From Prevotellaceae bacterium (GTDB lineage Bacteria; Bacteroidota; Bacteroidia; Bacteroidales; Bacteroidaceae), in the NCBI GenBank assembly GCA_022508665.1, contig JAFLUT010000008.1, positions 1-40,461 of the forward strand: a stretch of 40,461 nucleotides of DNA, written 5' to 3'. Below, in pieces: positions 15,522-26,277 of the stretch. The position numbers and the translations under genes are program-made. The notes under the pieces are model-generated. The model saw only the letters and a program-made list of their open reading frames with translations. It was not told where the DNA came from and did no database searches. How positions within the stretch are numbered: the stretch's first letter is position 1; the number at the start of each line of letters is the position of its first letter.

Positions 15522-17903
15522 ATGAATATGAAAAAAGTCTTGTTGTTTGCCGTGTGCTTTGCCATGATGTGCGGAGCGTCGGCACAAAAAGTGGAGTTCT
15601 TCACTCCGAGCATCGTGCATATCGTGAAGGACGCAGGAGAAGCGTCAGAGAAGAAGTCGGAGGTGGTCATCGCCATGCCCGAGAAAGTGAAAGTGGCTGA
15701 AAGTGAGGCTGATGGGGCTAAGACCTATAAGTCGTCGGCTTTGACTGTCACTGTGAAAGATGGTCGTGTGACTTTCGCCGACAATAAAGGTAATGTGTTG
15801 CTCAAGGAGGGCGAACATCGCTTCACGCCTATCAATGAAGGCATAGATGCTGGCTCATATAAAGTGAGACAGTGCTTTGCCATAGAAAAGGACGAGCCAA
15901 TCTATGGTCTCGGACTGTTGCAGAACGGCAAGATGTCGCAGCGTGGCGAACACAGAATGATGCAGCAGTCAAACCTCGACGACTACAGCCACTTCTGGCA
16001 GAGCATAAAGGGCTACGGTGTTTATTGGGACAACTACTCGCCCACGAAGATTGACGACAACGAGACATTGGAGTTGGAAAGCCAAGTGGGCAGCGGGGTA
16101 GACTACTATTTCATGTATGGCGGCGATGCCGACGGAGTGATTGCACAGATGCGTTGGCTGTCGGGCAAAGTGCCTATGCTTCCGCTGTGGACATACGGCT
16201 TCCATCAGAGTCGTGAGCGATACAAGAGCCAAAGGGAACTTCTTGAGGTGGTGAGGAAATACCGCGACCTCGGTGTGCCTTTCGACGGCATCATTCAGGA
16301 CTGGCAGTATTGGGGTTCTAACTACACATGGAACGCCATGGAGTTCATCAACGAAGACTTCGGACAGGCACAGCGTATGATTGACGAGGTGCATGAGAAG
16401 AACGCCCACATGAGCATCAGCATTTGGGCATCTTTCGGACCTCAGACGAAGCAGTATGCCGAGATGAAGGAGAAGGGCATGCTGCTGAGTTTCGAGACAT
16501 GGCCTCAGAGCGGACTGAGTTTCTGGCCTCCGAGAATGGACTATCCGAGCGGTGTGCGTGTATATGATGCCTACAATCCCGAGGCACGCGACATCTATTG
16601 GAACCATCTTTCTCGTCTGCACAAGATGGGCATTGATGCGTGGTGGATGGACTCTACCGACCCCGACCACCACAGTTATAAGGACAGCGACCTCGACGAA
16701 CGCACGGCAATGGGTTCGTATCGCAGCGTGAGAAACATTTTCCCGCTGAAGACTGTGGAGGGCGTGTATGACCATCAGCGTGCGGTAGATAGCACCAAGC
16801 GTGTCTTTATCCTTACTCGCAGTTACTTTGCAGGTCAGCAACGTACGGGAGCGAACACATGGAGCGGCGATATTGGCTCGTCGTGGGATAGTTTCCGCAA
16901 GCAAATACCTATCTGTCTGAACTACACGCTGACAGCCAACCCTCATGTGAACTGCGACATCGGCGGTTTCTTCGCAGGGGCATACAATACGCAAGGGGCA
17001 AACTCCGCAGTCCGCAATCCGCAGTATCAGGAACTCTATGTGCGTTGGATGCAGTTCGGAGCATTCATGCCGATGATGCGTAGCCACGGCACGGACGTAT
17101 ATCGCGAACTCTATTACTATGGCAAGCAGGGCGAGCCTGTGTATGAGGCGTTGGTGGATGCGGTGAAACTTCGCTATCGCTTCCTACCTTATATATATAG
17201 CACCTCATGGCAGGTGAGCAAGAACGACGACTCTTTCATGCGTGCCTTGTTCATGGACTTCAAGGACGACAAAGCGACATGGGACAACAACCGCGAGTAT
17301 ATGTTCGGCCGCAACGTGCTTGTATGCCCTGTGCTGAACCCTCTCTACACCACCGAGAAGGTAGTAAAGACCAACGAAATGACTGGTTGGGACAAGCAGG
17401 AGACACACGATGCCGCCACTGGTTATCCGCAGATGAACTGGCAAAACAACAAGCAATATGAAGTATATCTGCCAGCAGGTGCAGAGTGGTATGACTACTG
17501 GACAAACAAGAGATTGCAAGGCGGACAGACCCTCACAGCCGATGCTCCTCTGAGCCACTCGCCTCTCTACATCAAGGCAGGTTCAATCCTTCCTCTCGGT
17601 CCCGATGTGCAGTATGCCAATGAGAATAAGTTCGACAACCTCGACATCGTTGTCTATCCTGGCGCTGATGCAGAGTTCACTCTCTACGAGGACGAAGGAG
17701 ACAACTACAACTATGAAAAGGGCAAATACTCCACCATCCGTCTCACATGGAACGACAAGGCTAAGACGCTGACTATTGGCAAGCGTCAAGGCTCATTCGA
17801 CGGTATGGCTCAGCAGCGCACTTTCCATGTGAAGGTCGTAGGCGGAACAGAAAAGACTGTTTCGTATGGTGGAAAGTCAATCGTGCTTAATCAAGGGAAG
17901 TAA
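15522..17903 (+). CDS. Secreted GH31 family alpha-glycosidase
   Basis: A 793-residue exported glycoside hydrolase. The signal peptide is at about residues 1-22 (CGASAQ); a second ATG two codons in is an equally good start. An N-terminal galactose-mutarotase-like beta domain (to about 200) precedes the GH31 barrel. The nucleophile is Asp377 in WWMDSTDPD, and the acid/base is Asp450 in TWSGDIGSSWDSF. FEHRYYAGQQR-like residues are represented by RSYFAGQQRTGANTW. A C-terminal DUF5110-type beta domain (about 690-790, LYEDEGDNYNYEKG) completes it. GH31 enzymes act on alpha-glucosides, alpha-xylosides or alpha-galactosides. The sequence resembles Bacteroidetes enzymes annotated as alpha-glucosidase or alpha-xylosidase; I cannot separate these. 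Confidence 0.92.
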   Translation: MNMKKVLLFAVCFAMMCGASAQKVEFFTPSIVHIVKDAGEASEKKSEVVIAMPEKVKVAESEADGAKTYKSSALTVTVKDGRVTFADNKGNVLLKEGEHRFTPINEGIDAGSYKVRQCFAIEKDEPIYGLGLLQNGKMSQRGEHRMMQQSNLDDYSHFWQSIKGYGVYWDNYSPTKIDDNETLELESQVGSGVDYYFMYGGDADGVIAQMRWLSGKVPMLPLWTYGFHQSRERYKSQRELLEVVRKYRDLGVPFDGIIQDWQYWGSNYTWNAMEFINEDFGQAQRMIDEVHEKNAHMSISIWASFGPQTKQYAEMKEKGMLLSFETWPQSGLSFWPPRMDYPSGVRVYDAYNPEARDIYWNHLSRLHKMGIDAWWMDSTDPDHHSYKDSDLDERTAMGSYRSVRNIFPLKTVEGVYDHQRAVDSTKRVFILTRSYFAGQQRTGANTWSGDIGSSWDSFRKQIPICLNYTLTANPHVNCDIGGFFAGAYNTQGANSAVRNPQYQELYVRWMQFGAFMPMMRSHGTDVYRELYYYGKQGEPVYEALVDAVKLRYRFLPYIYSTSWQVSKNDDSFMRALFMDFKDDKATWDNNREYMFGRNVLVCPVLNPLYTTEKVVKTNEMTGWDKQETHDAATGYPQMNWQNNKQYEVYLPAGAEWYDYWTNKRLQGGQTLTADAPLSHSPLYIKAGSILPLGPDVQYANENKFDNLDIVVYPGADAEFTLYEDEGDNYNYEKGKYSTIRLTWNDKAKTLTIGKRQGSFDGMAQQRTFHVKVVGGTEKTVSYGGKSIVLNQGK

Positions 17904-17981
17904 AAGGTGGCTTTCATAACATTTTTATATGTCATCTAAATGTTTTTCACTAAAATATGATGTGGTTTGTTATAAAAGCAG

Positions 17982-17989
17982 TACCTTTG
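17982..17989 (+). promoter_or_regulatory. Candidate -7 box of the leu operon
   Basis: TACCTTTG, an exact TAnnTTTG match, 18 bp before the leader-peptide ATG at 18008. A TTTG lies only 12 bp upstream, so the -33 element is uncertain. The position puts transcription start just ahead of the leader ORF, as attenuation needs. Confidence 0.6.
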
Positions 17990-18007
17990 TAGCGAATTTA
18001 AGAGATT

Positions 18008-18103
18008 ATGGCATCATTTGGTAACATAGCACAACTAATCCTTCTTTCTCTACGACTTAGTGAGCCGTGGGTGAGAAAGGCGTGTGTGTACCAGTGTGCA
18101 TAG
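18008..18103 (+). CDS. Leucine-rich leader peptide of the leu operon
   Basis: A 31-codon ORF with ATG at 18008 and TAG at 18101. Residues 10-17 read LILLSLRL, five leucines in eight codons (CTA, CTT, CTT, CTA, CTT) with no leucine elsewhere. It lies between the -7 box and a terminator that precedes leuA. Ribosome stalling on these codons when charged tRNA-Leu is short would cover the RNA segment at 18044-18050 and free the segment at 18071-18080. Product probably has no function of its own. Too short for ordinary gene calling. Recognised from composition and context, not homology. Confidence 0.82.
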   Translation: MASFGNIAQLILLSLRLSEPWVRKACVYQCA

Positions 18104-18158
18104 CGATACAGAGACAATGTTTAACCTTTCTCACGACTGTGGGGAAGGTTTGTTTTTG
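18044..18158 (+). promoter_or_regulatory. Transcription attenuator (antiterminator/terminator switch) of leuACD
   Basis: Three mutually exclusive pairings can be read. Segment 1 (CTTTCTC, 18044-18050) pairs with GAGAAAG (18073-18079). Segment 2 (GTGAGAAAGG, 18071-18080) is the exact complement of segment 3 (CCTTTCTCAC, 18125-18134), the antiterminator. Segment 3 also pairs with segment 4 (18139-18150) to form the terminator. Segment 1 lies inside the Leu codons of the leader peptide. Stalling would block 1:2, allow 2:3 and let transcription reach leuA; free translation would allow 1:2 and 3:4 and stop it. Confidence 0.82.
18123..18158 (+). terminator. Intrinsic terminator within the leu leader
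   Basis: AACCTTTCTCAC (18123-18134), loop GACT, GTGGGGAAGGTT (18139-18150): a 12-bp stem with two G-U pairs, followed by TGTTTTTG. It lies 53 bp before leuA, so it must be conditional. Confidence 0.85.
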
Positions 18159-18210
18159 TATAGAATGGCATACGCCTCATAGTCTTGAGATATAAAATTT
18201 ACAAACATAT

Positions 18211-19710
18211 ATGGCAGACAGATTATTTATTTTTGACACAACGCTCCGCGACGGCGAACAAGTGCCGGGATGTCAACTCAACACGGTTGAGAAGATACAG
18301 GTGGCGAAGCAGTTGGAAGCATTGGGCGTTGATGTCATTGAGGCGGGTTTCCCCATTTCCAGCCCGGGCGATTTCAACAGTGTGGTTGAGATTTCTAAGG
18401 CTGTGACGTGGCCTACCATTTGTGCATTGACCCGTGCGGTGCAGAAAGACATTGATGTGGCGGCAGAAGCATTGCAGTATGCCAAGCACAAGCGAATACA
18501 CACGGGCATTGGCACATCGCCTTCGCACATCAAGTTCAAGTTCAACTCCACTCCCGAAGAAATAATAGAGCGTGCTGTGGCTGCGGTGAAATATGCCAAG
18601 AAGTATGTGGAGGATGTGGAGTTCTATGCCGAAGATGCTGGTCGCACGGACAACGAGTATCTTGCCCGTGTGATAGATGCCGTTACGAAGGCTGGTGCTA
18701 CGGTGTGCAACATCCCCGACACGACAGGTTTCCGTGTGCCAAACGAGTATCAGGAGAAAATCAAGTATCTCTACGAACACGTCGATGCGTTTGCGGCAGG
18801 GAAATCAATCCTCTCCACCCATTGCCACAACGACCTCGGCATGGCGACAGCCAACACCGTGGCAGGTGTGCTGGGCGGTGCAAGACAGGTGGAGGTGACT
18901 ATCAACGGTATTGGCGAGCGTGCAGGAAACACGTCTCTTGAAGAGGTGGCAATGATATTCAAGACTCATCCCGACCTCGGCATTGAGACGAACATCAACA
19001 CCACGAAGATTTATCCGACGAGCCGCATGGTGTCGAGCCTTATGAATATGCCTGTGCAGCCAAACAAGGCGATTGTGGGCAAGAACGCCTTTGCACATTC
19101 GAGCGGCATACATCAGGATGGTGTGCTGAAGAACGCTTCCACCTACGAAATTATGGATCCGAAGGATGTGGGTATCGACGACAACGCTATCGTCTTGACC
19201 GCTCGTTCTGGTCGTGCGGCATTGAAGCACCGTCTGCATGTGAATGGCGTGGATATTGATGGCGAGAAGTTAGACAAGATATATGAGGAGTTCCTCAAAC
19301 TGGCGGACAAGAAGAAGGAAGTGACCGACGACGATGTGCTTGTATTGGCAGGTGCAGAACGCTCGGAAACTAATAACGTGAAACTCGACTACTTGCAGGT
19401 GACTACAGGCAAGGGCGTTCGTTCCGTTGCAAGCATCGGTCTTCAGATTGCCAACGAACACTTCGAGGCTGCGGCATCGGGCAACGGCCCTGTGGATGCT
19501 TCCATCAATGCTTTGAAGACAATCATAAACCGTAAGATGACCCTCAAAGAGTTTACCATTCAGGCAATCTCTAAAGGTTCTGACGACCTCGGAAAAGTCC
19601 ACATGCAGGTGGAGTACAACGGTCATCTCTACTACGGTTTCGGAGCAAACACTGACATTGTGACTGCATCTGTTGAGGCTTACATCGACTGTATCAATAA
19701 GTTTAGATAA
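18211..19710 (+). CDS. leuA: 2-isopropylmalate synthase
   Basis: A 499-residue enzyme that condenses acetyl-CoA with 2-oxoisovalerate, the first committed step of leucine synthesis. The HMGL-like TIM barrel begins with the signature [15 protein letters not shown], and the metal site is [14 protein letters not shown] (near residue 200). [13 protein letters not shown] follows in the subdomain. The C-terminal leucine-binding regulatory domain (about 385-499) is intact, so feedback inhibition by leucine is likely. It is placed under the leader attenuator and followed 80 bp later by leuC. Confidence 0.96.
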
Positions 19711-19790: not shown

Positions 19791-21182
19791 ATGGGTAAGA
19801 CATTATTCGATAAAATTTGGGACGCACACGTTGTTCAGAACGTGGAAGACGGCCCTACACAACTGTACATCGACCGCCTGTATGCTCACGAAGTGACAAG
19901 TCCGCAGGCTTTCGACACACTGAGAGACAAGAAGATAAAGGTGTTCCGCCCCGACCACGTTGTGGCGATGCCCGACCACAACACCCCTTCCGACCAGCAG
20001 GAGGTCATCCACGACCCTGTTGGCAGAAAGCAGGTCGAGACACTCGCTGCCAACTGTGCCGAGTTTGGCATAAAGCACTTCGCAATGGGTACGAAAGACA
20101 ACGGCATCATCCATGTCGTTGGCCCTGAAAAAGCCCTCTCGTTGCCCGGTATGACTATCGTTTGCGGCGACTCCCACACCTCTACTCACGGTGCAGTAGG
20201 TGCTATCGCAATGGGCATCGGCACAAGCGAGGTGGCACAGGTGTTGGCTTCTCAGTGCATCCTTCAGAGCAAGCCAAAGACTATGAGAATAAACATTGAA
20301 GGCGAACTTCCCAAAGGCACAACGGCTAAGGATGTGGCACTCTACATCATGGCTCAGATGACCACTTCTGGAGCAACGGGATATGCCGTTGAATACGCAG
20401 GTTCGGCAGTACGCAACATGAGTATGGAGGGTCGTCTGACACTCTCCAACCTTTCTATAGAGATGGGTTCTCGTGCGGGTCTGATTGCTCCAGACGAGAC
20501 AACATTCGCCTACCTCAAAGGCCGCGAATATGCCCCCAAAGGTGCTGACTGGGACAAGGCGGTGGAGGAGTGGAAACAACTCTATTCCGACGAAGATGCC
20601 GTGTTCGACAAAGAGGTGACTTACCGTGCTGAGGACATCGCTCCACGTATTACATACGGCACAAATCCGGGGGCGGGCATTGCCATCGATGAGGCTATCC
20701 CTACACTCGAAAGCATCCCCGAAGCAGACAGAGGACAGTTCCTCAGTATGCTTGAATATATGCAATTCCAGCCCGGACAGAAACTCGAAGGTGTGCCTGT
20801 TGATTATGTCTTCCTCGGCGCTTGCACCAACGGCCGCATTGAAGATTTCCGTGCCTTCGCCTCTGTAGTGAAAGGCAAGAAGAAAGCCGACAACGTGGTG
20901 GCATGGCTCGTTCCGGGCTCATGGCTTGTTCGTCAGCAAATCATTGACGAAGGCATCGACAAGATATTGGAAGAAGCGGGCTTCGAACTGCGACTCCCTT
21001 CATGCTCATCGTGTCTTGCGATGAACCCCGACAAAGTGCCTGCCGGCAAACTGTCAATATCTACAAGCAACCGCAACTTCGTAGGTCGTCAAGGACCGGG
21101 GGCACGCACCATCCTTGCCAGCCCCCTCGTAGTGGCTGCATCGGCAATCACAGGAGTAGTAACAGACCCAAGAAAATTGTAA
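19791..21182 (+). CDS. leuC: 3-isopropylmalate dehydratase, large subunit
   Basis: A 463-residue aconitase-family subunit that with LeuD isomerises 2- to 3-isopropylmalate. It is a normal length. Signatures are [35 protein letters not shown], and the [4Fe-4S] ligands in [14 protein letters not shown] and [14 protein letters not shown] (three cysteines of the cluster: one in the first motif, two in the second). The leuD start follows 4 bp after the stop, so translation is probably coupled. Confidence 0.97.
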
Positions 21183-21186
21183 GACT

Positions 21187-21801
21187 ATGGCAAAAGAAAA
21201 ATTCGACATCATACAGTCAACTTGCATCCCCATCGAGATTGACAATTGCAACACCGACCTCATCATCCCTGCCCGCTATTTGGCAAGCACCACTCGCGAC
21301 CCCCAGTTCTTCGGCGATGCCTTCATGCACGACCTCCGTTTCGATGCTGACGGCAAGCCCGTGGCAGACTTCGTTATGAACAAGGCAGAGTATTCTGAAG
21401 CACCTCGCAAAGGAGTACACGAAATCATCGTAGGCGGTCAAAACTGGGGTTCTGGCTCAAGTCGCGAACATGCCGCATGGGCAATCGCTGGCTACGGAGT
21501 GCGTGTGGTCATATCCAGTTCCTTCGCTGACATCCACCGCAACAACCTTCTCAACTGCTTCGTTCTCCCCGTCATCGTCAGCAAGAAGTTTCAGCAGGAA
21601 CTCTTCGAGAGCATTGCAGCCAATCCTCAGACAGAGGTCAAGGTAGATGTTCCAAATCAGACCGTCACCAACCTCGCCACAGGGCATTCCGAGCATTTCG
21701 ACATCAACTCCTACAAGAAATACTGCCTCATGAATGCCTACGACGACATCGACTTCCTCCTATCAAACAAAGAGAAGATAGAGGCATACGAGGAGAAATA
21801 A
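21187..21801 (+). CDS. leuD: 3-isopropylmalate dehydratase, small subunit
   Basis: A 204-residue swivelling-domain partner of LeuC, normal length. Signatures are the N-terminal DNCNTDLIIPARYL and the GQNWGSGSSREHAAWAIAGYGVRVV substrate loop, read in two parts around the Ser-Arg-Glu-His core. It is the last gene of the operon: a perfect 17-bp terminator follows 31 bp after the stop. leuB (3-isopropylmalate dehydrogenase), often next in Bacteroidetes, is absent here. Confidence 0.97.
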   Translation: MAKEKFDIIQSTCIPIEIDNCNTDLIIPARYLASTTRDPQFFGDAFMHDLRFDADGKPVADFVMNKAEYSEAPRKGVHEIIVGGQNWGSGSSREHAAWAIAGYGVRVVISSSFADIHRNNLLNCFVLPVIVSKKFQQELFESIAANPQTEVKVDVPNQTVTNLATGHSEHFDINSYKKYCLMNAYDDIDFLLSNKEKIEAYEEK

Positions 21802-22917: not shown

Positions 22918-25900
22918 ATGAACAAAAAGTTTTTGTTAGCAGCATTGGCTGCAATGACCCTTTCTGTCCACGCACAGAAGACTGATGTAGAGGTGCAGAC
23001 AGGGCAGTACTTACCCGATTGGGAGTCGCTCAGTGCGTGGGAATGCCCCGAGTGGTTCAAAGACGCTAAATTTGGAATTTGGGCTCATTGGGGACCTCAG
23101 TGTCATGCCGAGGCAGGAGACTGGTACGCACGTTTCATGTACTATAATGGCACGAGTGCTAACACGTGGCACAAAAGCCATTTTGGTGACCCCTCAGTGT
23201 TCGGCTTGAAAGAACTATGCAACGACTGGAAAGCACAGAACTGGAATCCCGAGGCATTGGTCAACCTGTACAAGAGCGTTGGCGCACGTTACTTTATGGC
23301 GCTTGGCAATCACCACGACAATTTCGACCTCTGGAACAGCCCTTACCAAGAGTGGAACTCCGTGAATATCGGTCCAAAGAAAGACATCATCAAGGGATGG
23401 AGCGATGCCTGCAAAAAGGCAGGGCTGCCACTTGGAGTGAGCATCCATGCCAGCCACGCATGGACTTGGCTCGAGCCATCTCAGTCGTATGACGGCAATC
23501 TGACCAAAGAGGATGGCATAGGCAAATGGTGGGAAGGTTACGACCCGCAGGAACTTTATGCGCAGAAGCATGCTCACAGCACAGGTTGGACTAATTCGGG
23601 AACAATACACAGCCAATGGGACTGGGGCAATGGTGCAAGCCTCCCTTCTGCCGAATACAAGCAGAAGTTCCAAAATCGTGTGTTGGAGATGATAAACGAT
23701 TATGCTCCCGACATGATTTACTTCGACGACACAGCCATGCCTTTCTATGGATGTGACGACGAGATTGGCAAGAACATCCTCGCACATTATTATAATAATA
23801 GCGCTGCGAAGCACGACGGCAAGCAACAGGTCATTGCTACAGGAAAGCAGTTGACAACCGACCAGAAGGACTATATGATGTGGGATGTAGAACGAGGCAT
23901 TCCCGACAGGATGCAAGAGCAATACTGGCAGACCTGCACCTGCATTGGCGACTAGCACTACAATCAGAATACCTACAACAAAAATTCCTACAAGAGCGGT
24001 GCTACCGTTGTGCGAATGCTCGTAGATGTCATTTCAAAAAACGGCAACCTGCTGCTCTCCATTCCAGTGAAAAGCGATGGTACAATTGACGATAAGGAAG
24101 AGGCTATCCTCGCCGACATCAAGGCATGGATGGACATCAACAGCGAGTCGGTGTATGGCACTCGCACATGGAAGACATTTGGTGAAGGTCCATTGGCAGA
24201 TGCAGACAATCCGATGAACAACCAAGGTTTCAATGAGGGACTTAGTTACTCATCCCAAGATGTGCGTTATGTACAGAAAGACGGCACGGTTTATGCCACC
24301 ATTATGGCGTGGCCATCCGCAGGGCAATTCTCTTTCAGCAGTTTCTCGCTTGCATCGCCATATTATAGTGGTAAAGTGACTGCTGTTAAGTTGCTCGGCT
24401 ATGGTGAAGTTGAGTTTACACAGGGTCTTGAAGGTCTGACAGTAACTATACCTTCCACTCACCCTAATGAGATTGCTCCTGTTTTCGCTATCACTGCCGA
24501 AGAGGCAACCCTTTCGGCATATGAGACTTTGCAGGAGTTGATTTCTTCTCTTGAAACGTATGTTGTAGCAATGAATAAAGAAGCCAGTTACATCAATACT
24601 GGCAAACCTAACACTCTGTATATGGCAACTCTCCAAACAGCCATTGACGAGGCAAAACAAGTGGCGGAAAATGCGTCAGATGTAGACATAGCCGCAGCGC
24701 ATGAAAAACTGGCGAAGGCATACAGCGACTTCAAGCAGGACGGCTACAACAAAGGCGGCCTCTTTGACGGTGCTTACGAGTCAGATGTAACGGTAGAATA
24801 TCTGGTAGAGGCGTCGGGCTTCACACGCTCAGCAGGTGGCAACAGCCGTTTCGGCGCACCTAAGAACTGGACGGTGGAGAACTTCAACATCCCCAACGGA
24901 GGTGACGGAACAAAGGCAGGTTTGGACAAGTATTCGGGCAAGGACGCCCTGATGCTCGGCGTGTGGAACGACCGAGGCAGCAACACCAGCGGCGACTTGA
25001 CCAACGCTCGCATCTACCGCAAGGTACATCTTTCAGAAGGTTCGTACTATTTCGGAGCAGGTTACAATACTCGCTATGGCATTGGTGCGACTGCGTATAT
25101 GTTTGCTTCAACCGACCTTTGCAACACCTCCGACATTCCTGCCAAGTCCATTGCCTACTATCCTATAGCAAGTGCCACCGAAGACCTTCAACTGTGCGGA
25201 TTATGGTTCAATGTGAAGGAAGAGCAAGATGTGTATCTCGGTTTTCAGGTAGATTTGGCCAATGGCTCTGCCACACAGGAGTTCCGTGCCGAGAAAGTGG
25301 CACTCTATCGCCTTGCCGATGTCAACGAGTCTGCCCTCCGAACCCTCGTGTCCGACATTGACAAGCAACTGAAGGGTATGAAAGTTAACGACAACACAGG
25401 ATACTATAACCGTGAGGCATGGGCAGCGATGCGCGCCACCGTTGACAACGTGCTTGAACAACTCAATGGAATGTCAGCCGATGACTCAGAGAATACCTAT
25501 TACGCTCTGACCAAACAGTGGGAAGATTATCTTGCCAACGCAAAGAACAAAGGAGGGCTGGTCGATGTTGACGGCAGTCAAGACATCACTATCGAAGCAT
25601 TGAAAGAGAACAAAAATTTCAGTCGTGCTAACACAAGCGTGAAGACACGTTTTGCCACTCCCCTTTATTGGACAGTGGAGAACTTCAACATCCCCAACGG
25701 TAGTGACGGAGTGAAGAATGGGCTTGACAAATATGAAGGTACAGATGCCTTAATGCTCGGTGTATGGAATGACAGAGGGAATAACACAAATGGAGATTTG
25801 AAAAACGCTCGCATCTACCAGAAAGTGACGTTGGAAGCAGGTCGCTACTTCTGGGGTGCATCATTCAACGCACTCTACCAACTCAATCAGGCATACATCT

Positions 25901-26277
25901 TTGTGAGCGATGCTTTGCTTCCTACAAGCGAAATGGAAACCTCCTCGCTGGCTTACATCAACATCAATGAATGTGACAAAAATGGGCAGACTTACGGATT
26001 GTACTTCACGCTTGAACAACCACAAGAGGTGTACATTGGCTTTCAAGCAGACCTTTCTGCTGGCTCTGCCACACAGGAGTTTCGTGCAGAGACCATTTCG
26101 TTGCTGACGTATAATGGCGGTGGAGTGGTTGGTGTTCAAAACATTGAGGCTGATACCCTATCCAACACACCTGCTGAGTTCTTCACTTTGCAGGGCATAC
26201 GTCTGAATGCCGCTCCTCATAGTGGTTTCTACATCGTCCGCAAAGGAAGTGCTACGTACAAGTATTACAAACAATAG
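22918..26277 (+). pseudogene. Secreted GH29 alpha-L-fucosidase, interrupted by an in-frame TAG
   Basis: One reading frame of 1,120 codons, broken only by TAG at 23953-23955 (codon 346). Before it: signal peptide (1-20) and most of the GH29 barrel, with FGIWAHWGP, ALGNHHDNFDLW (about 128-139) and the nucleophile region MIYFDDTAMPF (Asp270). After it the same domain continues without a gap (HYNQNTYNKNS, then MLVDVISKNGNLLLSIPVK). GH29 enzymes of this type have Trp here (CIGxWHY), so a TGG-to-TAG change fits. Downstream are a beta domain (about 430-520), a helical FIVAR-like region (about 525-610), two homologous beta domains (about 620-800 and 880-1075, both with WTVENFNIPNG and DALMLGVWNDRG), and a C-terminal sorting-like tail (FFTLQGIRL, GFYIVRKG). 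Two products result: 345 residues and, from an internal ATG at 24010, up to 755. Activity is unlikely without readthrough. Confidence 0.88.

Follow-up and report, generated by a model that had tools for sequence, protein, structure and literature searches.

A conserved leader element with the anatomy of a ribosome-mediated leucine attenuator upstream of leuACD in Bacteroidales

Main finding

The region preceding the leuACD genes of a Prevotellaceae bacterium is, as judged from its sequence and from that of its relatives, a real and conserved element with the anatomy of a ribosome-mediated leucine attenuator, belonging to a Bacteroidales family for which no Rfam match was found. The element combines a leucine-rich leader ORF, mutually exclusive 2:3 and 3:4 pairings, the codon-to-arm spacing of an attenuator and the cognate leuA, leuC and leuD genes downstream. 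We consider it very probable that it acts as a transcription attenuator for leucine mediated by the translating ribosome.

Attenuation of this kind depends on tight coupling between transcription and translation, a subject little studied in Bacteroidota to our knowledge. Translation in this phylum starts largely without Shine-Dalgarno sites. For flavobacteria, part of the text of PMC9723704 describes these sites as absent.

Anatomy of the leader region

The window, that is, the whole stretch of DNA analysed, comprises 40,461 nucleotides (forward strand of contig JAFLUT010000008.1, assembly GCA_022508665.1) from a 2.67-Mb draft genome. The features relevant to this study are the following:

17982-17989, + strand: Bacteroidota-type -7 promoter box TAccTTTG (predicted promoter, from sequence)
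18008-18103, + strand: leader peptide ORF of 31 codons, MASFGNIAQLILLSLRLSEPWVRKACVYQCA and stop (from sequence and translation; frame and Leu codons conserved)
18035-18058, + strand: control region, codons 10-17, LILLSLRL (CTA ATC CTT CTT TCT CTA CGA CTT)
18040-18070, + strand: putative 1:2 'protector' hairpin (from MFE and pair probabilities)
18071-18080, + strand: arm 2, 5' arm of the antiterminator, GTGAGAAAGG, within the leader ORF
18101-18103, + strand: leader stop codon, 20 nt past arm 2 (from sequence)
18123-18134, + strand: arm 3, 5' arm of the terminator, AACCTTTCTCAC, of which 18125-18134, CCTTTCTCAC, also pairs with arm 2
18139-18150, + strand: arm 4, 3' arm of the terminator, GTGGGGAAGGTT
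18151-18158, + strand: U-rich tract 3' of the terminator stem, TGTTTTTG, 6 U of 8 (from sequence)
18211-19710, + strand: leuA, 2-isopropylmalate synthase (NF002086, 722 bits, cut-off 532; TIGR00973, 650 bits, cut-off 599)
19791-21182, + strand: leuC, 3-isopropylmalate dehydratase large subunit (TIGR00170, 612 bits, cut-off 560)
21187-21801, + strand: leuD, 3-isopropylmalate dehydratase small subunit (TIGR00171, 145 bits, cut-off 116)

The original prediction had described a promoter box, a 31-codon ORF and five leucines within codons 10-17, and all of these were recovered when the window was read and translated. The leader has leucine at codons 10, 12, 13, 15 and 17 only, two of the five codons being the rare CTA. 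The proposed competition between two structures was also borne out at the level of sequence, arm 2 (18071-18080) being the exact complement of 18125-18134, which is itself part of a terminator arm. The terminator stem (18123-18134 with 18139-18150) contains 12 pairs, 2 of them G-U, and the U-run that had been placed at 18151-18158 is present as a U-rich tract, although not as an uninterrupted run. Arm 2 does lie inside the leader ORF, but the distance to the stop is 20 nt and not the 21 nt given before. In the window, the first base of the last Leu codon is 15 nt from arm 2 and the leader stop is 107 nt from leuA. Regarding the sequestration of GAGAAAG by CTTTCTC within the Leu codons, the latter motif was located at 18044-18050, but the proposed register was absent from the folds that sequester arm 2; the core of the 1:2 hairpin consists instead of CUACG (18050-18054) paired with CGUGG (18066-18070), and approximately 18040-18049 pairs with arm 2 in a register that varies between folds.

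Folding of the 201-nt region 18010-18210 resulted in a z value of -3.86, with none of 200 shuffles being as stable. A run of 10 pairs between leader and terminator arm appeared in 0 of 300 dinucleotide shuffles when only Watson-Crick pairs were counted, and in 1% of them when G-U pairs were allowed; furthermore, this pairing was found again at the same place in relatives.

Downstream of leuD, the ORFs at 22918-23955 and 24010-26277, which we take to be of the fucosidase type, apparently correspond to one glycosidase split in two, the second ORF starting in a seemingly internal stretch. The split could be either a sequencing error or the sign of a pseudogene.

Conservation of the leader in related genomes

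A DNA search revealed the leader in 11 of 13 same-genus genomes, the window's own included, and in none of eight genomes from other families of the order. A total of 91 sequences was then scanned: the window, ten same-genus places and 80 LeuA loci kept of 587, the best LeuA matches being largely from rumen and gut Bacteroidaceae and Prevotellaceae assemblies. A Leu/Ile-rich leader ORF together with a terminator was present in 47 of the 91 sequences, 42 of them distinct. Under the filter used, leader plus terminator were absent or missed in 44 of the 80 LeuA loci, including L061, whose match was removed as due to chance (70-nt gap, unrelated hairpin); a leader-like ORF without a passing terminator was seen in at least four further loci (L068, L076, L079 and L080). 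Of the 42 distinct leaders, 36 have the strict box TAnnTTTG at most 60 nt ahead of their start.

Leu codons not conserved in close relatives had been named as grounds for refuting the attenuator, but they are conserved: in the 14 of 18 window-type leaders that were aligned, leucine at window codons 12, 13, 15 and 17 was kept in 14, 13, 14 and 14 of the 14, respectively. Synonymous variation was observed at Leu codons 12, 13 and 15, and third codon positions were the most variable in these 14 leaders (31 further bases vs 19 and 22 at the other positions).

Six loci (L011, L018, L019, L050, L065 and L088) carry short leaders whose stop falls in or just before arm 2. A ribosome terminating on such a leader would directly mask arm 2, unlike the situation in the window.

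Pairing and covariation of the alternative stems

The antiterminator helix 2:3 was paired in 91.0% of cells across 25 sequences, vs 38-67% when the arms were slid, and the number of cells changed on both sides (11) exceeded that in shuffles (2.6; 0 of 500 as high). Two of the five measures of 2:3 covariation did not rise above shuffles: 52 of the 500 shuffles had as many pairs altered on both sides, and 430 had as many pair types. One broken pair each was found in L009, L010 and L051-L055, and RNAalifold drew the antiterminator without any structure being supplied. The terminator helix 3:4 was 95.8% paired in 42 sequences, with changes on both sides at 7 of its 12 pairs (0 of 500 shuffles).

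Arm 3 is common to both helices, and at some columns arms 2, 3 and 4 change together. The three arms read A/U/A in L006, L051 and L053 vs G/C/G in most other sequences (L055 shows A/U/G), and C/G/C in L037, L039, L042 and L043 vs U/A/U in 15 others; in L050, a matching one-base insertion in arms 2 and 3 was seen by eye. Leaders of the Bacteroides/Prevotella type mostly carry GGAAGTGAG or a near variant as arm 2, encoded by Gly-Ser-Glu/Asp codons; its pairing partner CTCACTTCC belongs partly to the stem and partly to the loop of the terminator.

The 1:2 hairpin is stable in the window folds and its core columns are mostly intact in close relatives, with covariation in the relatives' alignment not above that of shuffles. 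Of the three stems in which the original prediction had suggested looking for covariation, 2:3 and 3:4 show it, including some three-way compensation, but the 1:2 core does not beyond shuffles. The description of the element as a complete leucine attenuator is supported as an interpretation, 'complete' being slightly too strong for an element whose third stem is weak, since the register named for it was not drawn by folding and its core lacks covariation beyond shuffles.

Three related loci, L011, L018 and L019, had suggested that leaders with a stop in arm 2 have lost the 1:2 stem. This idea was discarded after it failed over 78 of 84 leaders, where the probability of arm 2 being unpaired did not vary with the distance to the stop (Spearman -0.09, p 0.46). 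Local fold energy varied with stop distance in the same leaders (rho -0.28, p 0.012, not corrected for relatedness), and the folds of L011, L018 and L019 are very stable through another pairing.

Ribosome spacing, codon usage and folding of the growing transcript

In 55 of 76 leaders, 13-18 nt separate the last Leu or Ile codon from arm 2, vs 10% in leaders whose residues upstream of arm 2 had been permuted; because the leaders are related, the 55 are not independent cases. The 76 were drawn from 84 leaders, five of which precede ilv genes, after eight were dropped for an arm 2 that was short or badly placed. Assuming a ribosome footprint of -17 to +13, we infer that 13-18 nt is the distance at which a stalled ribosome covers arm 1 and stops just short of arm 2.

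The codon CTA accounts for 27 of 102 Leu codons in 18 same-type leaders (two of five in the window leader) vs 11 of 303 in ten window genes, with a Fisher p of 4e-10 calculated on leaders that are not independent. Rare-codon bias is likewise a trait of the enterobacterial leu leader. As an account of attenuation leaders generally, such a bias is called oversimplified in a section of PMC1183508.

When the growing transcript was folded with a ribosome placed on any one of the five Leu codons, mean 2:3 pair probabilities were 0.90-1.00 for transcript ends at 18134-18146; a ribosome at codon 10 left the 1:2 core unblocked. With no ribosome, or with a ribosome at the stop codon, the 1:2 hairpin forms first (0.92-0.94 at 18118-18128) and 2:3 competes afterwards at equilibrium. 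With the ribosome at the stop, equilibrium favours 2:3 while 18134-18146 emerges, so that the leucine-replete 'off' state needs 1:2 to form first and to hold; in these models, the replete state appears to be the least secure step of the switch. After the complete stem has emerged, the terminator is favoured at equilibrium in all ribosome states tried. For this reason, folding the full leader at equilibrium with footprints was rejected as proof of switching, and the switch would have to be kinetic.

Proposed mechanism

According to the mechanism that we propose, RNA polymerase would initiate within a few bases downstream of the box at 17982-17989, and a ribosome would begin translation of the 31-codon leader. 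A shortage of charged tRNA-Leu would stall this ribosome on the Leu codons; halted at codons 12-17 it would cover arm 1, its leading edge remaining just short of arm 2 even when the stall is at the last Leu codon. The free arm 2 would then pair with arm 3 as the latter leaves the polymerase, no timely terminator would form, and leuACD would be transcribed. When leucine is plentiful, the ribosome would run through arm 2 toward the stop, arm 2 being first masked and then presumably captured by the 1:2 hairpin; arm 3 would pair with arm 4, and transcription would end near 18157.

Distribution of the element and sister leaders upstream of ilv genes

A covariance model was derived from the 42 sequences and used at E 0.01 for family and order and at 0.001 for the phylum, the window's own genome being counted each time. 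Of the genomes sampled, 99 of 151 in the window's family, representing 19 of 22 genera, gave a match, as did 34 of 119 in the order and 3 of 118 in the phylum sample (two besides the window's own); these counts are lower bounds because the filters were strict. Reading of 60 chosen matches revealed leuA as the next gene in 42. Among the other 18, all of the 17 listed open with an ilvD-like and then an ilvB-like ORF, followed in 15 by an ilvN-like ORF (identified by motif; ilvD and ilvB of L160 were verified by HMM). An Ile/Val/Leu-rich leader was read in 12 of the 18 ilv loci, as in L160 (MNLHTSINLAVLHIIRVVVVTLGA) and L114 (MKLLNTVLVVVVVVVLKNIE), a count flattered by a script that selects the ORF richest in these residues, and no convincing leader was found in L153-L158. 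The leaders upstream of ilvD-ilvB in L108, L114, L116, L123, L125 and L159-L165 are attenuator-like, with similar arms and, in several cases, runs of valine codons.

The window genome has a single match to the model. Its ilvD gene is preceded by a box and a terminator-like hairpin with no leader ORF seen (L186, approximately 1320-1446, C130), perhaps the remains of a decayed ilv attenuator. Given its frequency in the family and its position ahead of leu or ilv genes wherever it was read, the element would be a natural system, tunable by amino acids, in which to test the coupling of transcription and translation in gut and rumen bacteria.

Leader codons and the presence of a CimA-like gene

In many relatives, a second LeuA-like gene follows leuD. 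Its best matches were the Leptospira citramalate synthase (3ble, E 1.5e-111) and NF042433, which indicates a likely CimA; the assignment is likely rather than proven because the full-length copy in the window genome scores 616 against an NF042433 cut-off of 950. With 'in operon' defined as lying no more than 4.5 kb past leuA in the same orientation, cimA was in operon in 18 of 34 genomes, elsewhere in 13 (window genome included), not found in two and unresolved in one; no close cimA-like gene was found in L062 (G039) and L065 (G042).

In these genomes and four further operons, the leader contains at least three isoleucines in 22 of 22 cases with cimA in the operon and at most two in 15 of 15 cases without it. 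In a set enlarged with loci from the 60 matches read, at least three isoleucines were present in 54 of 55 leaders with cimA after leuD, the exception being L137 with two, and in none of 16 leaders with cimA elsewhere or absent, a group that includes the window's genus and others. Left out of this set were L146 and L147 (LeuA start not located), though both have cimA and Ile-rich leaders, as well as L084, L120 and L140 (contig ends or no leader) and L116 and L123 (leuA behind ilv genes). The window leader itself retains two Ile codons, so that 'Leu only' describes an ideal.

The LeuA tree requires the state of cimA to change four times and that of isoleucine four or five times (smaller and enlarged set, respectively). 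The supported independent contrasts, three in the smaller set and two in the enlarged one, are all in the predicted direction, with sign-test p values of 0.25 and 0.5 that cannot reach significance because the contrasts are too few; shared ancestry could explain the remaining association.

The separate cimA of the window genome has its own TAccTTTG box just upstream, where no Ile leader, and no leader ORF or terminator, was seen. The detached cimA of G107 has its own Leu/Ile/Val ORF and terminator. In G075 (L166, C6), a single Ile/Leu/Val leader with terminator precedes cimA-ilvE-ilvD-ilvB-ilvN-ilvC-leuA-leuC, ilvE being identified by HMM and the other genes by motif.

We incline, though only just, to the view that a single branched-chain attenuator platform is common to Bacteroidales, its control codons having been retuned by evolution to the current genes of the operon: Ile, Val and Leu before ilvDB, Ile and Leu before leuACD with the CimA-like gene, and nearly Leu alone without it, the window lineage having lost this gene from the operon and most Ile codons from the leader. 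If leader codons do track operon content, attenuator peptides would be a sequence-only readout of the operon product, useful for gene-function annotation. This retuning to gene content is the part of the analysis most worth a specialist's time.

Alternative explanations

The terminator is situated approximately 220 nt past the stop of a glycosidase-like gene (15522-17903) on the same strand, and it could be argued that the hairpin only terminates that gene, the small ORF being incidental. The element, however, accompanies biosynthesis operons, leuA being next in 42 of 60 model matches and an ilvD-like ORF first in 17 of 17 examined of the other 18; moreover, the ORF, with a promoter box ahead of it in 36 of 42 cases, keeps its Leu codons and their spacing, which makes this explanation highly improbable. 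It is also quite unlikely that a protein or a ligand governs the terminator, in the manner of a riboswitch or a T-box, with the peptide only shielding the RNA or aiding reinitiation at leuA. In favour of this, the letters of the arms are conserved as well as their pairing, and part of PMC4833913 puts forward reinitiation at leader ORFs in Bacteroidetes for spacings of 11-14 bp; but the leader stop is much farther from leuA in the window, no Rfam match reached the gathering score, and the amino-acid content of the peptide tracks the pathway of the operon.

By the footprint logic used above, any stall at codons 12-17 would act alike, and the leader might sense translation generally, as under antibiotic or ribosome stress, and not leucine. 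What is conserved and retuned, however, is the Leu/Ile codons, with enrichment of the rare CTA, and general sensing has in our opinion very little chance of being correct. Leucine attenuation by the translating ribosome is the reading that we retain in the comparison below.

Relation to known systems

Comparison of window positions 17000-19000 with 4227 Rfam families resulted in four matches at E up to 5, among which RF00512, RF01692 and RF00230 did not appear; the lowest E-value (0.11) corresponded to a viral frameshift element on the other strand, below the gathering score, and was judged to be due to chance. Seven related loci likewise gave no Rfam match at gathering score, T-box RF00230 included. 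The Bacteroid-trp RNA (RF01692), presumably a trp leader, is like the window's element a cis-regulatory RNA of the same phylum; unlike it, Bacteroid-trp has no match in the window's own genome (0 of 1), the control being matched in Bacteroides ihuae. It is listed for Bacteroidetes in the portion consulted of PMC2864571.

A further case from the phylum is the proposal for Flavobacterium psychrophilum, where leader-peptide attenuation was inferred before amino-acid operons, in sections of PMC9723704 that also give the TAnnTTTG consensus; phylum, type of operon and proposed mechanism coincide, and the organism differs in being outside Bacteroidales. For B. thetaiotaomicron, sORFs 'reminiscent of leader peptides' are mentioned in part of PMC7366714, whose main text contains no mention of leucine, leuA or ilv. 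In Staphylococcus aureus, a leucine-rich attenuator peptide for branched-chain synthesis is reported in PMC5794164; by its description it shares pathway and Leu-rich leader with the window's element, and it comes from another phylum. In the portion of PMC3766115 seen, only His, Leu, Thr and Trp leaders are treated, and attenuator motifs are supposed to be of gamma-proteobacterial origin with very few transfers, a picture that the window's attenuator family, as far as that portion goes, does not readily fit.

A literature search, with most subscription papers outside its reach, returned neither an experiment on an attenuator of this kind in Bacteroidota nor any account of the cimA link. Vitreschak 2004 (FEMS) is said to name candidates in Bacteroidetes/Chlorobi and may already list the leu candidates of the phylum, as may Lopatovskaya 2010. 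The reference system is the enterobacterial leu attenuator (leuL of E. coli and Salmonella; Rfam Leu_leader, RF00512), in which a short ORF with clustered, partly rare Leu codons is followed by competing 2:3 and 3:4 hairpins ahead of the leu genes. The element of the window lacks a match to RF00512 and differs from that system in its Bacteroidota box, in an arm 2 located within the ORF with the stop 20 nt beyond, and in its leuACD operon; it shares with it the clustered and partly rare Leu codons, the alternative 2:3 and 3:4 pairings that come next, and the leu genes that follow.
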